Shown here: piece after piece, positions 3,339-41,563 of the stretch
Layout of the letters: each line of letters starts with the position of its first letter
Numbering within the stretch: the first letter of the stretch is position 1
Origin: Mucilaginibacter mali
GTDB taxonomy: Bacteria; Bacteroidota; Bacteroidia; Sphingobacteriales; Sphingobacteriaceae
Length of the DNA: 64,000 nucleotides
Reading direction: 5' to 3'
NCBI RefSeq assembly: GCF_013283875.1
Contig: NZ_CP054139.1
Span: 4,402,001 to 4,466,000 of the forward strand
The notes under the pieces: generated by a model
Databases searched by the model: none
What the model was told of the DNA's origin: nothing
Seen by the model: the letters and a program-made list of their open reading frames with translations, nothing else
Translations under genes and position numbers: made by a program

Positions 3339-4049
3339 ATGGAAAACATCCTATCCAAAACATACAAGCACATCTTCTTCGATCTTGACCATACCATTTG
3401 GGATTTTGATAAAAACGCCGAGGAAACCCTGCACGAATTATTTGTGCTGCACCGGCTGAATGATATCGGCTTAACATCGGCCGATGTATTTATCGAAACT
3501 TATACCGCCAACAACCACAAACTTTGGCGCGAATATCATTTAGGGAACATCACCAAGGCTGCCCTGCGCGAAGCCCGCTTTAAACAAACCTTTTTAGATC
3601 TGGGCGTTCACCCCGATGTGATGCCGCATGGTTTTGAGGATGCCTACGTGCAGCTTTGCCCCACAAAAACCAACTTGTTCCCCCACGCGCACGAAACATT
3701 GGAATATTTGCAGGGGAAATACACACTGCACCTCATTTCCAACGGTTTCAAGGAATCGCAGGATATCAAGATCGGCAACACCGGGCTGGGCAAATACTTT
3801 ACACACATTGTGGTATCCGAAACCATCGGTATTAACAAGCCTGATAAAGCCATTTTTCAACATGCTATTGATTTAGCTGGTGCAACCATTGCCGAAAGCA
3901 TTATGATAGGCGACAGCCTGGAAGCCGATGTGCGCGGCGCGCTGAACTTTGGTATGGATGCCATTTACTTTAACCCCGCTGGACTTAAAAAGCCGGATGA
4001 TGTGCAGTTGCAAATAAGTAGTTTAAAGGAGTTAACTTTGATGTTGTGA
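3339..4049 (+). CDS. YjjG-family HAD hydrolase (noncanonical pyrimidine nucleotidase)
   Basis: A 236-residue HAD-superfamily protein. Motif I is FFDLDHTIWDFD (Asp15 nucleophile, Asp17), motif II lies in LHLISNGF, motif III Lys in GINKPDKAIF, and motif IV is MIGDSLEADVRGA. The helical cap between motif I and II and the DHTIWDF sequence are typical of the YjjG/YfnB branch, which dephosphorylates noncanonical pyrimidine nucleotides in house-cleaning. Cytoplasmic. It is a monocistronic-looking gene with an inverted-repeat element upstream and a toxin-antitoxin pair downstream. Confidence 0.88.
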   Translation: MENILSKTYKHIFFDLDHTIWDFDKNAEETLHELFVLHRLNDIGLTSADVFIETYTANNHKLWREYHLGNITKAALREARFKQTFLDLGVHPDVMPHGFEDAYVQLCPTKTNLFPHAHETLEYLQGKYTLHLISNGFKESQDIKIGNTGLGKYFTHIVVSETIGINKPDKAIFQHAIDLAGATIAESIMIGDSLEADVRGALNFGMDAIYFNPAGLKKPDDVQLQISSLKELTLML

Positions 4050-4096
4050 TGATCGAAGTGCAATAATAGCACAGAAATATTGTTTAATTTTGTATT

Positions 4097-4324
4097 ATGA
4101 CACAACGGACATATCGCATATTACTTACCCCCGAAGACGAGGGTGGTTTTAGTGTTGCTGTACCTGCATTGCCTGGGTGCTTCACCCAGGGTGAAACTAT
4201 TGACGAGGCTATAGCCATGGCTAAAGAGGCGATATCACTTTATGTAGAAAGTCTTGAAGCAGATGGCGAACCGGTGCCTGATGATAGCCGGAGCCTGGAG
4301 TACTCCTTGACGTTTGCTTCCTGA
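4097..4324 (+). CDS. hicB: HicB-family antitoxin
   Basis: A 75-residue protein that consists only of the HicB partial RNase-H-like fold: YRILLTPEDEGGFSVAVPALPGCFTQGET with the conserved GGF...PALPGC...G core, then the helix EAIAMAKEAISLYVESL. The C-terminal DNA-binding domain of longer HicB proteins is absent. It precedes hicA by 3 nt, the reversed HicBA order that is common. HicB neutralises the HicA mRNA interferase. A TAATTTTG sequence at 4085-4092 could be a -7 box, which would make the transcript nearly leaderless, but no matching -33 element is evident. Confidence 0.92.
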   Translation: MTQRTYRILLTPEDEGGFSVAVPALPGCFTQGETIDEAIAMAKEAISLYVESLEADGEPVPDDSRSLEYSLTFAS

Positions 4325-4327
4325 GCA

Positions 4328-4528
4328 ATGAAGTCTTACACCCCAAAAGAAATCATAACCATTCTTTTGGCGCATGGGCTTGAACTCACGCGTGTAAATG
4401 GCAGCCATCATATTTATGTTAACCGTGCTAACGGTAAACGGACAGTTGTCCCTATGCACGCTAAAGATTTGAAAAAGGGAACGCTCCACGGCATTTTAAA
4501 ACAAGCTGGTATAGACCTTAAAGACTAA
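4328..4528 (+). CDS. hicA: HicA-family mRNA interferase toxin
   Basis: A 66-residue double-stranded-RNA-binding-like toxin. The hallmark GSHHIYVN (Gly25-Ser26-His27-His28) holds the catalytic His, followed by the basic stretch NGKRTVVPMHAKDLKKGTL typical of HicA. HicA cleaves mRNA when free of HicB. Full length for the family and apparently intact. It directly follows hicB and ends 7 nt before the glycosyltransferase-DinB fusion gene, so that gene may share the transcript. Confidence 0.93.
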   Translation: MKSYTPKEIITILLAHGLELTRVNGSHHIYVNRANGKRTVVPMHAKDLKKGTLHGILKQAGIDLKD

Positions 4529-36873: not shown

Positions 36874-37719
36874 ATGAAAGGACCTGAATTTTTAAAATAT
36901 ATCAACCCGGTATTAACTATACTTCAATCAAATGGTGGCGCAGGTGATTCATCAGATGTTATTGAGCAAGTAATAGATAAACTCCAGATTACTGAAGCAG
37001 AGATGGAGGAAACCACATCCAACGGACAATCACGGGTAAGAAACCAAATTCAATGGGCTAGATTTTATTTATTCAAAGCTGGTCTGATAGACAACGCTCA
37101 ACGAGGATTATGGCGACTTACAAACAAAGGGTTGGATAAGAAACTTAACAATGACGATGTTTATAAACTTTTTAAAGGTGTTCAAGATAGCGTAAAAAAA
37201 GCGTCCCCGGCAAAGCCACAAAAAGAGGAACCAAAGTTCGAGAATATTTCAACCGAAGATGAAGAGCACTCTTCAAGCTTAATCGCAATAATTCAAAACC
37301 TATCTTCCTCAGGCTTTGAAAAACTCTGTAAACGATTGTTAACGGAGATTGGCATAAACGAAATCACGATAACTGGTGGCTCGGGTGATCAGGGAATAGA
37401 TGGGAAAGGTATCGTCAAACTAAATGATGTCGTAAGTTTAAATATCGTTTTCCAATGCAAACGTTATAAAGAAACGGTTTCGCCACATCATGTTCGTGAT
37501 TTTAGGGGAGCAATGCAAGGACGAGGTGAAAAAGGGCTAATCACAACTACCGGTAGATTTACTAAAGAAGCGAGAAATGAGGCCAACAGAGATGGGGTTA
37601 CCCCCATTGAGCTAATTGATGGGGATAGATTAGTCGACCTATTCGAAAAATATCGCTTGGGTCTTAAACCGGTGACTGTGTTTGAGATTGATCAAGAGTT
37701 CTTCAAGAGTTTTAATTAA
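36874..37719 (+). CDS. mrr: Mrr-like restriction endonuclease
   Basis: A 281-residue protein with an N-terminal winged-helix Mrr_N-type domain (about 1-110: NQIQWARFYLFKAGLID, GLWRLTNKGLD) and a C-terminal PD-(D/E)XK nuclease domain. The catalytic core reads GGSGDQGIDGKGI followed by VFQCKRYK (Asp ... QxK), and DVPIELIDGDRLVDL-like TPIELIDGDRLVDLFEKY is the family's end. Mrr cleaves methylated foreign DNA. The codon use is visibly more AT-rich than radC and pheT on either side, consistent with transfer. No methyltransferase is next to it, as expected for a type IV enzyme. Confidence 0.88.
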   Translation: MKGPEFLKYINPVLTILQSNGGAGDSSDVIEQVIDKLQITEAEMEETTSNGQSRVRNQIQWARFYLFKAGLIDNAQRGLWRLTNKGLDKKLNNDDVYKLFKGVQDSVKKASPAKPQKEEPKFENISTEDEEHSSSLIAIIQNLSSSGFEKLCKRLLTEIGINEITITGGSGDQGIDGKGIVKLNDVVSLNIVFQCKRYKETVSPHHVRDFRGAMQGRGEKGLITTTGRFTKEARNEANRDGVTPIELIDGDRLVDLFEKYRLGLKPVTVFEIDQEFFKSFN

Positions 37720-37835: not shown

Positions 37836-40238
37836 ATGAAAATATCATATAACTGGCTTAAAGAATTTATTGCTACCGATAAAACCCCGGCCGAAATATC
37901 TACTATACTTACCGGCACCGGTTTAGAGGTGGAAAGCCTTGAAAAAGTGCAGGCTATTCCCGGCGGATTGGAAGGCCTGGTGATAGGCTATGTAAAGGAA
38001 TGTACCGATCATCCCAACTCCGACCACCTGCACCTGACCAAGGTTGATGTGGGCGGCGCGGAAGACCTTTCTATCGTTTGCGGCGCGCATAACGTCGCGG
38101 CAGGGCAAAAGGTAGTGGTGGCTACCGTTGGCACTACCGTGCACCCTACCGCCGGCGAACCTTTTAAAATCAATAAGTCGAAGATACGCGGTGAGGTGTC
38201 CGAAGGGATGATCTGTGCCGAAGATGAGATAGGTCTGGGCACCGACCATGACGGCATTATGGTACTGGATGCGGATGCTGTAGTTGGCACCCCCGCTAAA
38301 GACTATTTTAAACTAAACGACGACTACATGTACGAGATAGGCCTTACGCCTAACCGTGCCGACGCGGCATCGCACCTGGGTACAGCCCGCGATGTAGCGG
38401 CCTTTTTAAAGATAGCTGTTACCCGACCGGATGTTTCGGCATTTAAGGTTGATAACCACGATCTGAACATTGCCGTTGAGGTACAAAATACCGCATCGGC
38501 GCCAAGATATTCGGGATTGACCATGACCGGCCTTGAAGTGAAGGAATCACCTCAATGGTTAAAAGAGCGCCTGGCCGTTATCGGTGTGCGCAGCATTAAC
38601 AACGTGGTAGATGTAACCAACTATGTACTGCACGAGTTGGGCCAGCCCCTGCACGCTTTTGATGCCGATGCCATTGCCGGTGACAAAGTGATCGTAAAGA
38701 ACTGCCCCGAAGGCACACCTTTCACTACGCTTGATGAGGTGGAACGCAAACTGCATGCCGACGACCTGATGATCAGCAATGCCGATGAACCAATGTGCAT
38801 AGCGGGTGTTTTCGGCGGCACCAAATCGGGCGTTAAGGCATCAACCACCAGCATATTTTTAGAGAGCGCCTACTTCAATTCGGTAGCGGTGCGCAAAACT
38901 TCAAAAAGGTTCGGATTAAAAACAGATGCCTCTTTCCGTTTTGAGCGTGGCACCGACCCTGACATGACCGTGTTCGCCTTAAAACGTGCTGCCCTGTTAA
39001 TTCAGCAGGTGGCAGGCGGCAAGGTATCGTCGGAGATATTCGACAACTACCCAGCACCCGTTGCTCCGTTCGAGGTGGAAGTATCGTATAAAAATATCCA
39101 CCGCCTGATCGGTAAAGAGATCACGCACGATGAGATCCGCGGCATCATCACCGCTTTGGATATCCGGATAGTTAACGAGACCGAAGAAGGCCTGTCGCTT
39201 AAAGTACCTCCATACCGCGTGGATGTTACCCGCGATGTGGATGTGATTGAAGAGATACTGCGCATCTATGGTTATAACAATATCGAGATCCCTACACAGA
39301 TCCGCGCATCGCTGAACAATGCCTCGCGCCCTGAAAAGGATACCGTGCAAAATGCCATATCCGAATGGTTAACGGCCAATGGTTTTAACGAGATCATGTC
39401 TAACTCGCTCACCAAGTCATCTTATTACGATAACCTGGATAACCTGGTGAAGATACTGAACCCGCTAAGCAGCGACCTTGATGTGATGCGCGGTACTATG
39501 CTGTACTCGGGCCTGGAAGCGGTGGCTTATAACGCCAACCGCCGTAACGGCAACCTGAAACTGTACGAGTTCGGTAAGACCTACCACGTAGCCGAGGACA
39601 AATACAAAGAAGACCAGCACTTCGCCATCTTCATGACCGGCAACAACCAGGCCGAGCAATGGAATCAGCAGGTGAAACCGGTATCGTTCTACAACCTTAA
39701 AGCTGTAGTTGATGGTTTGCTGGAACGTATGAACATAAAAGACTTTGTTACCGAAGAACCGACCTGTAGCAAACTGGCTTACGGCTTGCAATATACCCGC
39801 GGCAACAAGCGCCTGGTAAAATTTGGCGCGGTAAATGGCGCATCGCTAAAAAAGGCTGACGTTGACCAGTCGGTTTTCCATGCCGATTTTAATTTCGACT
39901 ACATCCTGCAACTGGTGAAAAAGAATGTGATCACCAACCAGGATATCCCGAAATTCCCATCGGTGCGCCGCGACCTGTCGATGCTGGTAGATAAGGCCAT
40001 CACCTTTAACCAACTGAAACAAATAGCCCAAAAAACCGAGCGCAAGCTGATAAAAGAGGTGAACGTTTTCGACGTATACGAAGGCGATAAATTACCGGCC
40101 GGCAAAAAATCGTACGCATTGAGTTTCATCATCCAGGACGACGAGAAAACCCTGACCGATAAAGCCATCGAAAGCTTAATGCAAAAATTAATTTATAATC
40201 TCAGTAACCAGGCAAATGCCGAGATCAGAAATAAATAA
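37836..40238 (+). CDS. pheT: Phenylalanine--tRNA ligase subunit beta
   Basis: An 800-residue bacterial-type PheT, MKISYNWLKEFI..., with the N-terminal tRNA-binding EMAP-like domain (about 40-150), the B3/B4 editing region, the B5 domain (SYKNIHRLIGKEI), the catalytic-like core and the C-terminal FDX-ACB anticodon domain (FPSVRRDLSMLVDKAITF... NQANAEIRNK). It forms an alpha2-beta2 enzyme with PheS, which is not in the window. Two AT-rich accessory genes separate it from the coiled-coil gene and zapA that often follow it directly. Confidence 0.98.
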   Translation: MKISYNWLKEFIATDKTPAEISTILTGTGLEVESLEKVQAIPGGLEGLVIGYVKECTDHPNSDHLHLTKVDVGGAEDLSIVCGAHNVAAGQKVVVATVGTTVHPTAGEPFKINKSKIRGEVSEGMICAEDEIGLGTDHDGIMVLDADAVVGTPAKDYFKLNDDYMYEIGLTPNRADAASHLGTARDVAAFLKIAVTRPDVSAFKVDNHDLNIAVEVQNTASAPRYSGLTMTGLEVKESPQWLKERLAVIGVRSINNVVDVTNYVLHELGQPLHAFDADAIAGDKVIVKNCPEGTPFTTLDEVERKLHADDLMISNADEPMCIAGVFGGTKSGVKASTTSIFLESAYFNSVAVRKTSKRFGLKTDASFRFERGTDPDMTVFALKRAALLIQQVAGGKVSSEIFDNYPAPVAPFEVEVSYKNIHRLIGKEITHDEIRGIITALDIRIVNETEEGLSLKVPPYRVDVTRDVDVIEEILRIYGYNNIEIPTQIRASLNNASRPEKDTVQNAISEWLTANGFNEIMSNSLTKSSYYDNLDNLVKILNPLSSDLDVMRGTMLYSGLEAVAYNANRRNGNLKLYEFGKTYHVAEDKYKEDQHFAIFMTGNNQAEQWNQQVKPVSFYNLKAVVDGLLERMNIKDFVTEEPTCSKLAYGLQYTRGNKRLVKFGAVNGASLKKADVDQSVFHADFNFDYILQLVKKNVITNQDIPKFPSVRRDLSMLVDKAITFNQLKQIAQKTERKLIKEVNVFDVYEGDKLPAGKKSYALSFIIQDDEKTLTDKAIESLMQKLIYNLSNQANAEIRNK

Positions 40239-40270
40239 CTAACTTTATATTAAAAACAGATCAAATTGGT

Positions 40271-40711
40271 ATGCTCACGTTTAAAGAATTTTTAGAAAAG
40301 AAAAGCCATGATGAAAATCGTACCGATTGGACTTTGCGTAAGCAAAAATGGGTAAGTTCTGTTGATAGGTTATTTAACGATGTAAGCGACTGGCTTTCTC
40401 CATTTTTAAAAGAATCTTTACTGAAGATAGATCGTAAAAATATACATGTTTACGAATCATATATTGGTTCATATGATGTTCCACAATTAGATATTGTTAT
40501 CGGGAACGATCTTATCTCTCTTGTACCTAAAGGAACACTAATTTTAGGCGCTCATGGCCGGGTAGATATACAGGGTCCAAAAGGAGATGCGATAATTTTG
40601 GAAAAAGACTGGAATGTTTGGGAAATCGCGAATAAAACTGACAAAACAAAATTTTACAGTTTTAATAAACTGGCATTTGAAGCTTTAGTACAGCATTTGA
40701 TCAATGGCTAA
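40271..40711 (+). CDS. Unknown partner gene of a HEPN-like protein
   Basis: A 146-residue cytoplasmic protein: an N-terminal amphipathic helical part (KQKWVSSVDRLFNDVSDWLSPFL) and a beta-rich centre (YDVPQLDIVIGNDLISLVPKGTLILGAHGRVDIQGPKG). I do not recognise a family. It overlaps the following gene by 8 nt, and both are more AT-rich than pheT and zapA, which flank them. The layout, small first gene overlapping a putative HEPN ribonuclease, is like a toxin-antitoxin or defence pair, which is inference. Confidence 0.6.
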   Translation: MLTFKEFLEKKSHDENRTDWTLRKQKWVSSVDRLFNDVSDWLSPFLKESLLKIDRKNIHVYESYIGSYDVPQLDIVIGNDLISLVPKGTLILGAHGRVDIQGPKGDAIILEKDWNVWEIANKTDKTKFYSFNKLAFEALVQHLING

Positions 40712-41270
40712 ACAATCCCTTACTGCCGATGTAAAATCATTAGACGAGGTAGAAAGTTGGTATCAGGATCAAACTGAAGCTAGTTTATTATATAGGCGAC
40801 AAATTATTTCTCTTATTGTAAATCCTGCGGGCACAATTACAAATAACTTGAAATTTGCCGGGATGAGTATAGACGATGTTAATATTCATTTTAATAATAA
40901 TGAACAAGAATTAGAGCATTTAACATGTCTGTACCTGATCGCTTCGGTTGAAGGTTTTGTCATGTCTGATTTTAAAAGGAGATATAAATCCCGTGAGAAA
41001 ACAGATGTAGGCAGTGACTTCAGAAATTTGGTAAAGGCCAAAAGGAATTTAGGTGATAAGAAAATACGGGTTTCATTAGAAAAGGAAATTTTACAGATTT
41101 GGAAAGACAGAACTGCATACACCAGTTTCAGTGAGTTCATCGCTTTACTCAAATACCGGCACTGGCTTGCGCATGGGCGAAATTGGGTGCCTAAATTAGG
41201 CAGGACCTTTACTTTTGCTAACTCTTATAAGATCGCTGAGGAACTCATTGACAATATTGACAATTATTAA
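40704..41270 (+). CDS. HEPN-like protein with Rx4H motif
   Basis: A 188-residue all-helical protein. Near the C-terminus is LLKYRHWLAHGRNWVPKLG with R152-x4-H157, the Rx4-6H signature of HEPN-family ribonucleases, and an earlier helix (LEHLTCLYLIASVEGFVMS) resembles the acidic helix of that fold. HEPN proteins act as RNases or nucleotidyltransferase-linked toxins in many toxin-antitoxin and defence systems. It overlaps its upstream partner by 8 nt and ends 5 nt before the coiled-coil gene. The HEPN call rests on the motif and helix pattern only. Confidence 0.55.
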   Translation: MAKQSLTADVKSLDEVESWYQDQTEASLLYRRQIISLIVNPAGTITNNLKFAGMSIDDVNIHFNNNEQELEHLTCLYLIASVEGFVMSDFKRRYKSREKTDVGSDFRNLVKAKRNLGDKKIRVSLEKEILQIWKDRTAYTSFSEFIALLKYRHWLAHGRNWVPKLGRTFTFANSYKIAEELIDNIDNY

Positions 41271-41275
41271 TATTA

Positions 41276-41563
41276 ATGACAACAGCCGAACAGTTAAATC
41301 AAGTCATAGATAAAACGGAGCGTTTGATTCAAATCTGCAATACTTTGCAGGAGGAGAATGATATGCTGAGGCTGGAAAATCAATCGCTGATGGTGGCGTT
41401 TAATGCCAGTAAGGATAAGAGCAAAGAGCTGGAAGAAAAGCTTCGTGTACTGAAGCTGGCGAAGTCGTTTTCGGAAACAAATGAAAAAAGCCTTGACATA
41501 AAGCAAAAAATTAACGAATTTGTCCGGGAAATTGATAAGTGCATTGTGTTGTTGAAAAAATAA
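41276..41563 (+). CDS. Coiled-coil protein upstream of zapA (ZapB-like in layout)
   Basis: A 95-residue protein that is almost entirely coiled coil: EQLNQVIDKTERLIQICNTLQEEN..., with heptad hydrophobics and many Glu/Lys. It lies 22 nt before zapA, an arrangement common in Bacteroidota, where such a small coiled-coil gene precedes zapA. It may cooperate with ZapA at the divisome; that is inference from context. Confidence 0.7.
   Translation: MTTAEQLNQVIDKTERLIQICNTLQEENDMLRLENQSLMVAFNASKDKSKELEEKLRVLKLAKSFSETNEKSLDIKQKINEFVREIDKCIVLLKK

Follow-up and report, generated by a model that had tools for sequence, protein, structure and literature searches.

Between pheT and a zapB-like gene of Mucilaginibacter mali lie two short overlapping genes, designated A and B, which probably form a mobile toxin-antitoxin-type module in which B, a predicted HEPN-fold RNase, is restrained by A. 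Computation supports the pairing of the two genes, which occur widely and are inherited together, as well as their overlap, the motif in B, both predicted folds and an insertion site that is empty in congeners. HEPN RNases are common to toxin-antitoxin, abortive-infection and CRISPR systems, and the central question is what keeps each of these enzymes silent. The A-B pair couples a HEPN protein to a partner fold for which we found no antitoxin role reported and, within toxin-antitoxin biology, it would, if true, represent a HEPN toxin joined to a protein partner of a new type. On balance, we lean toward the view that a frataxin-fold protein A controlling a HEPN RNase B constitutes a widespread and undescribed conflict module, providing a means of restraint besides MNT and RnlB and the first toxin-antitoxin or anti-phage use of the frataxin fold that we found. 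A description of the pair was not found in the family libraries or the literature searched, the latter being mainly open-access, and an earlier report may exist; the same literature yielded no article linking frataxin to HEPN toxins or antitoxins and none printing RHWLAHG. Since A and B are absent from current family libraries, annotation pipelines label both products hypothetical.

The A-B locus between pheT and zapB

The window, which is the whole stretch of 64,000 nucleotides that was analysed, contains the stop of pheT at position 40238 and the start of the zapB-like gene at 41276. The interval between them (40239-41275), which was read in 30 genomes of the genus with the window's own included, holds the entire module. 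Gene A (40271-40711, plus strand) encodes 146 aa and starts 33 nt past pheT, and gene B (40704-41270, plus strand) encodes 188 aa and ends 5 nt ahead of zapB; the two were characterised from their open reading frames, from alignments of 70 (A) and 73 (B) sequences, and from structural models. The sequence-only reading of this DNA had described two overlapping reading frames of 146 and 188 codons, and its coordinates proved exact, with an overlap of 8 nt (ATGGCTAA, 40704-40711, plus strand) that places the start codon of B within the last codons of A and may couple the translation of the two genes. B is present in a single copy in the window's single-contig 6.04 Mb genome. The two genes had also been described as AT-rich, which holds relative to pheT (GC of 0.34 for A and 0.36 for B versus 0.49) and is weak relative to zapB (0.39) and zapA (0.38); because these two genes are likewise AT-rich, composition by itself is weak evidence at this locus.

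Pairing of A and B

When the loci with an intact B were counted with fragments and repeats excluded, A was found immediately upstream of B at 69 of 74, and the five unpaired cases consisted of three copies at contig ends (L018, L058 and L094), one with a truncated A (L089) and one with no A (L097). Of the 69 homologous pairs, 54 overlap by exactly 8 nt, with A usually ending in AAT GGC TAA and B starting with ATG GCT AA, and the pair thus has the toxin-antitoxin-like form of a small co-inherited two-gene operon with the partner first. Profiles of A and B, searched separately in 365 genomes of the phylum, retrieved the same five genomes at adjacent positions; the sequences of these genomes were part of both profiles, and the result therefore means that there were no unpaired copies, rather than an independent discovery of the pair. 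The co-occurrence of A and B homologues, which had been proposed as a check on the module, is borne out by both counts. In addition, the distances among A proteins and among B proteins are correlated (r = 0.79, with none of 2000 permutations above 0.22), a value to which the shared ancestry of the loci contributes.

Exceptions occur on both sides, and the sampling is biased towards B. An intact A accompanies a broken or absent B at about six loci (L005, L009, L010, L092, L109 and L115), and an intact B accompanies a broken or absent A at three (L013, L089 and L097). Homologues without their partner had been named as an observation that would speak against the module, and to a weak degree they exist, as a lone A in L005, L009 and L010, where, moreover, the usual C-terminal end is missing from the A protein. 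Solitary antitoxins occur too.

Two of these loci merit separate description. In L009, the lone A (3941-4378) is carried by a Methylobacterium plasmid with transposase-like reading frames directly downstream, suggesting that an insertion removed B. In L013 (1486-2001, minus strand), A has one in-frame TGA next to an intact B and is either a pseudogene or the product of an assembly error.

Predicted HEPN fold of protein B

Residues R152 and H157 of B lie inside LLKYRHWLAHGRNW (codons 41157-41159 and 41172-41174), and the R-x4-H motif that they delimit, RHWLAH, occupies positions 41157-41174 on the plus strand. By our estimate, chance alone would place an R-x4-H in about one sixth of proteins as long as B, and the motif by itself proves little; the motif picked out by the sequence-only reading is nevertheless real, because R152, W154, A156 and H157 are invariant in all 73 homologues. 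An Rx4-6H with a polar residue after the R, together with an Ex3[KR], are features of active HEPN domains (PMC3710099). In the B family, the residue following the motif R is polar throughout (H in 70/73, N in 3/73), and the Ex3[KR] is represented by E83 in 72/73 and by R or K at position 87 in 69/73 sequences. The window's B deviates at two positions at which the other sequences are nearly uniform, having M87 for their R or K and N160 for their Y, and judging from these two residues this copy may be less active.

The AlphaFold2 model of B (pLDDT 92) is all-helical with seven helices, in keeping with the helical, HEPN-like layout suggested earlier. Structural realignment of Foldseek candidates placed HEPN-fold proteins at all ranks from 1 to 14 (Z 8.9-7.1 over 108-127 residues), HepT being matched with Z 8.9 over 123 residues (6m6u) and Z 8.3 (5yep); HI0074, SO_3166 and YutE were among the further HEPN-fold matches. 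These Z values are modest and, among helical bundles, such values can be incidental, and Foldseek by itself gave no match of significant E-value for the model. The assignment of B to the HEPN fold relies on the invariant motif and on the fact that HEPN-fold proteins fill the top ranks without exception; B is thus predicted to be a HEPN-fold protein and would presumably act as an endoribonuclease. Curated HEPN family models do not cover the B family: the window's B had no Pfam match, and 7 of 75 B proteins matched PF18735, all weakly (best E 2e-4).

Predicted frataxin-like fold of protein A

The model of A (pLDDT 90) consists of a long helix, antiparallel strands and a C-terminal helix; it is mostly beta-sheet, which agrees with the earlier description of A as beta-rich. 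Its best structural matches are CyaY (4lp1, Z 10.6 over 97 residues of a 104-residue chain, 2.8 A), followed by E. coli CyaY (1ew4, Z 10.3), Arabidopsis frataxin (9jb5, Z 8.9) and chain 7 of 2fug (Z 7.9). For models without relatives the best Z is usually 7-8, a level that the frataxin matches of A exceed. Foldseek's own ranking contained no significant match for A, and a library of viral folds gave no clear one. From the model, we predict that A has a frataxin-like fold, sharing with frataxin and CyaY the order of helix, antiparallel sheet and helix. The two differ in that A shows no sequence relation to frataxin/CyaY, is paired with a HEPN gene, and is mobile and patchy in distribution. Membership of A in the frataxin family by sequence is unsupported, since its alignment with CyaY by hhalign reached only E 0.24 over 27 columns, with a CyaY alignment drawn from genomes that also carry the A-B module, and no match to PF01491 was among the families listed. 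Five residues (P86, G88, R97, D99 and W117) are invariant in the 70 A homologues. Many antitoxins have a DNA-binding domain, and none was recognisable in A.

The statement that A belongs to no recognisable family held for both proteins in the libraries searched. Pfam, NCBIfam, PADLOC, PHROGs and PDB sequences gave nothing usable for A or B; in PADLOC-DB 2.0.0, the window's A and B were unmatched, and a comparison with 82 A and B proteins gave scattered single weak matches (best E 7e-4).

Distribution of the pair

The module is compact (about 1 kb), and about 70 homologous A-B loci were found in about a dozen phyla, including Pseudomonadota, Thermodesulfobacteriota, Bacillota, Planctomycetota, Acidobacteriota, Cyanobacteriota, Gemmatimonadota and Bacteroidota, as well as on small plasmids of Klebsiella/Raoultella and on viral contigs. 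A tblastn search against plasmids identified 18 Klebsiella/Raoultella records with the A-B arrangement, of which several are 3.7-4.7 kb plasmids with few other genes; the 8-nt overlap recurs here between A' and B', and FKFRHWLAHGRYWHPK is present in B'. A pair on a Cupriavidus plasmid has the B motif KRYRDWIAHR. Profiles were built from the plasmid pairs; in viral contigs they recovered 5 loci and, in a later search, 10, and in genome contigs they recovered 69. The genome scan that used the window's B alone returned zero matches. The window's member sits on a long branch of the B tree, and its divergence explains why the window's A and B, as queries, recover few relatives. No relatives of B were found in phage records, and the Klebsiella module had no match at the DNA level in E. 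coli genomes. The B tree intermixes phyla, and the GC content of the module is below that of its flanks at 43 of 46 homologous loci. A mobile and patchy distribution, as is characteristic of toxin-antitoxin-like modules, is therefore seen in the empty site of the congeners, in the plasmid and viral copies, and in the phylum-mixed tree.

A divergent second branch of B is represented by L011 (4443-4994) and L014 (2019-2540), with the motifs KRYRDWIAHR and CEYRNWVAHGK. These proteins are also paired with A, indicating that the pairing predates the strict RHWLAHGRYW motif.

Proposed mechanism and the role of A

The sequence-only reading had suggested a mobile toxin-antitoxin or anti-phage pair, and the mobility, the pairing and the empty site uphold the mobile pair. 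The toxin and immunity roles are inferred, namely that B cuts RNA and is toxic, that A neutralises it, that translation of the two genes is coupled, that a trigger exists and that the pair may serve in defence. In the scheme that we propose, A would be translated first from a shared mRNA, and translation of B would restart at the 8-nt overlap, such that B would be produced only where A has just been produced. A would then bind B and hold it inactive. Once a trigger has freed it, perhaps infection by a phage or the element being lost, B would act through R152 and H157, presumably as a dimer, as a metal-independent endoribonuclease that cuts RNA and halts growth. Type II pairs and MNT-HEPN usually have the antitoxin gene first (PMC3710099), an order that A and B would follow.

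The exceptions to pairing bear on how strictly A could be an antitoxin. If A were a strict antitoxin, its loss should not precede that of the toxin, and evidence against such a role comes from the intact B with a broken or absent A in L089 and L097 and from the stop inside A in L013, three cases that derive from draft or metagenome assemblies. The same loci would fit a scheme that makes A a sensor or an activator, switching on B upon encountering a phage product or ligand and leading to abortive infection, with B non-toxic when alone. This is the main rival explanation and, on data that fit either reading, the less likely one in our view. Abortive infection and related defence often employ HEPN effectors (PMC3710099), and prophages carry HEPN defence systems such as Tha (PMC11087260); copies of A-B occur on viral contigs. 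The gene neighbourhood points both ways. Among the 118 nearest neighbours of the module, the recognisable ones are mostly ordinary genes, and a minority match defence models (PtuA, AbiP2/DRT, DarG, DrmMI, type II methylases and PD-T4-6), a link to defence that is only suggestive. Antitoxin-first coupling, as in the toxin-antitoxin reading, fits the gene order and the 8-nt overlap equally well or better than a sensor does.

The insertion site in congeners

The gap between pheT and zapB is 1037 nt in the window versus 35-471 nt in 29/29 congeners, in all of which A and B are absent, and with the window's B as query a search of 300 further genomes from the family found no relative of B. The sequence-only reading had said that an invariant presence of the two genes in the pheT-zapA neighbourhood would count against it, and they are not invariant there; a housekeeping member of the pheT-zap operon is ruled out by the 29 congeners that lack A and B. 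A broader form of this idea is that A-B is a domesticated or housekeeping RNA-processing or RNA-binding pair, with a non-toxic B, A as its cofactor or chaperone, and no role in conflict. The neighbourhood is indeed housekeeping in character, the spacings of 33 nt and 5 nt would permit co-transcription with pheT and zap, and many homologues adjoin metabolic genes; set against the empty site in every congener, the absence of B from the family genomes, the mixing of phyla in the B tree and the copies on small plasmids and viral contigs, this explanation appears improbable. A tRNA, convincing repeats and an excess of promoters were looked for at the insertion site, and none was found.

Two further observations concern this region. 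Two congeners (L033 and L043) have about 450 nt in the pheT-zapB gap, with another small reading frame (MKAFTDLEVWKKSR...) whose product we take to resemble the 23S rRNA intervening-sequence proteins, and its presence suggests that the gap is a recurrent insertion site. On the other side of pheT, between radC and pheT, lies a gene for an Mrr-type restriction endonuclease (window 36874-37719; Mrr_N and Mrr_cat; GC 0.39). No homologue was seen at the radC-pheT position in eight congeners, and on this basis a second insertion flanks pheT, at what is possibly a variable site.

Comparison with known HEPN systems

The motifs of HEPN-MNT systems are GSX10DXD in the MNT and RX4HXY in the HEPN protein (PMC7641770). 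The A-B pair resembles these systems (HepT-MntA, type VII) in its two small genes with the partner before the HEPN gene, in the match of the B model to HepT, and in the R-x4-H of B. It differs in that A is frataxin-like and GSX10DXD occurs in 0/70 A proteins, and in that B has R-x4-H-G-R-Y in place of RX4HXY, which occurs in 0/73; HEPN-MNT was ruled out on these counts, and A, having neither the motif nor a fold match, is not an MNT nucleotidyltransferase, as the sequence-only reading had stated. That the pair is a type VII variant, in which A would be a diverged nucleotidyltransferase modifying a conserved tyrosine of B, is scarcely credible: HepT is among the best structural matches of B, the gene order is shared, and a tyrosine follows the motif (R-x4-H-x2-Y) in 70/73 B proteins, but besides the missing motifs the best structural matches of A are frataxins, and the window's own B has N160 at the position of the tyrosine.

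Other HEPN systems resemble the proposed toxin-antitoxin arrangement in part. RnlA-RnlB and LsoA-LsoB of the RNase LS family are, by description, HEPN RNase toxins held by a non-MNT protein (PMC7180214). However, RnlA has an NTD and an NRD besides its HEPN domain (PMC7180214), and since B is a single domain of 188 aa, the full RnlA architecture cannot fit. Ribo L-PSP-HEPN (PF18735) is the nearest Pfam family by weak matches, with the motif region of B aligned in register; the likeness is below firm assignment, a profile comparison with B scoring no better than a CyaY control, and this family has a ParB or L-PSP partner (PMC3710099), which A-B lacks. One of 75 B proteins matched the models of the MAE_28990 group (E 0.03). 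The pair formed by a MAE_18760-family HEPN protein and a ParA/Soj ATPase is alike in that the antitoxin position beside a predicted HEPN toxin is taken by a protein other than an MNT (PMC3710099); this partner is an ATPase there and a frataxin-like protein of 146-190 aa here.
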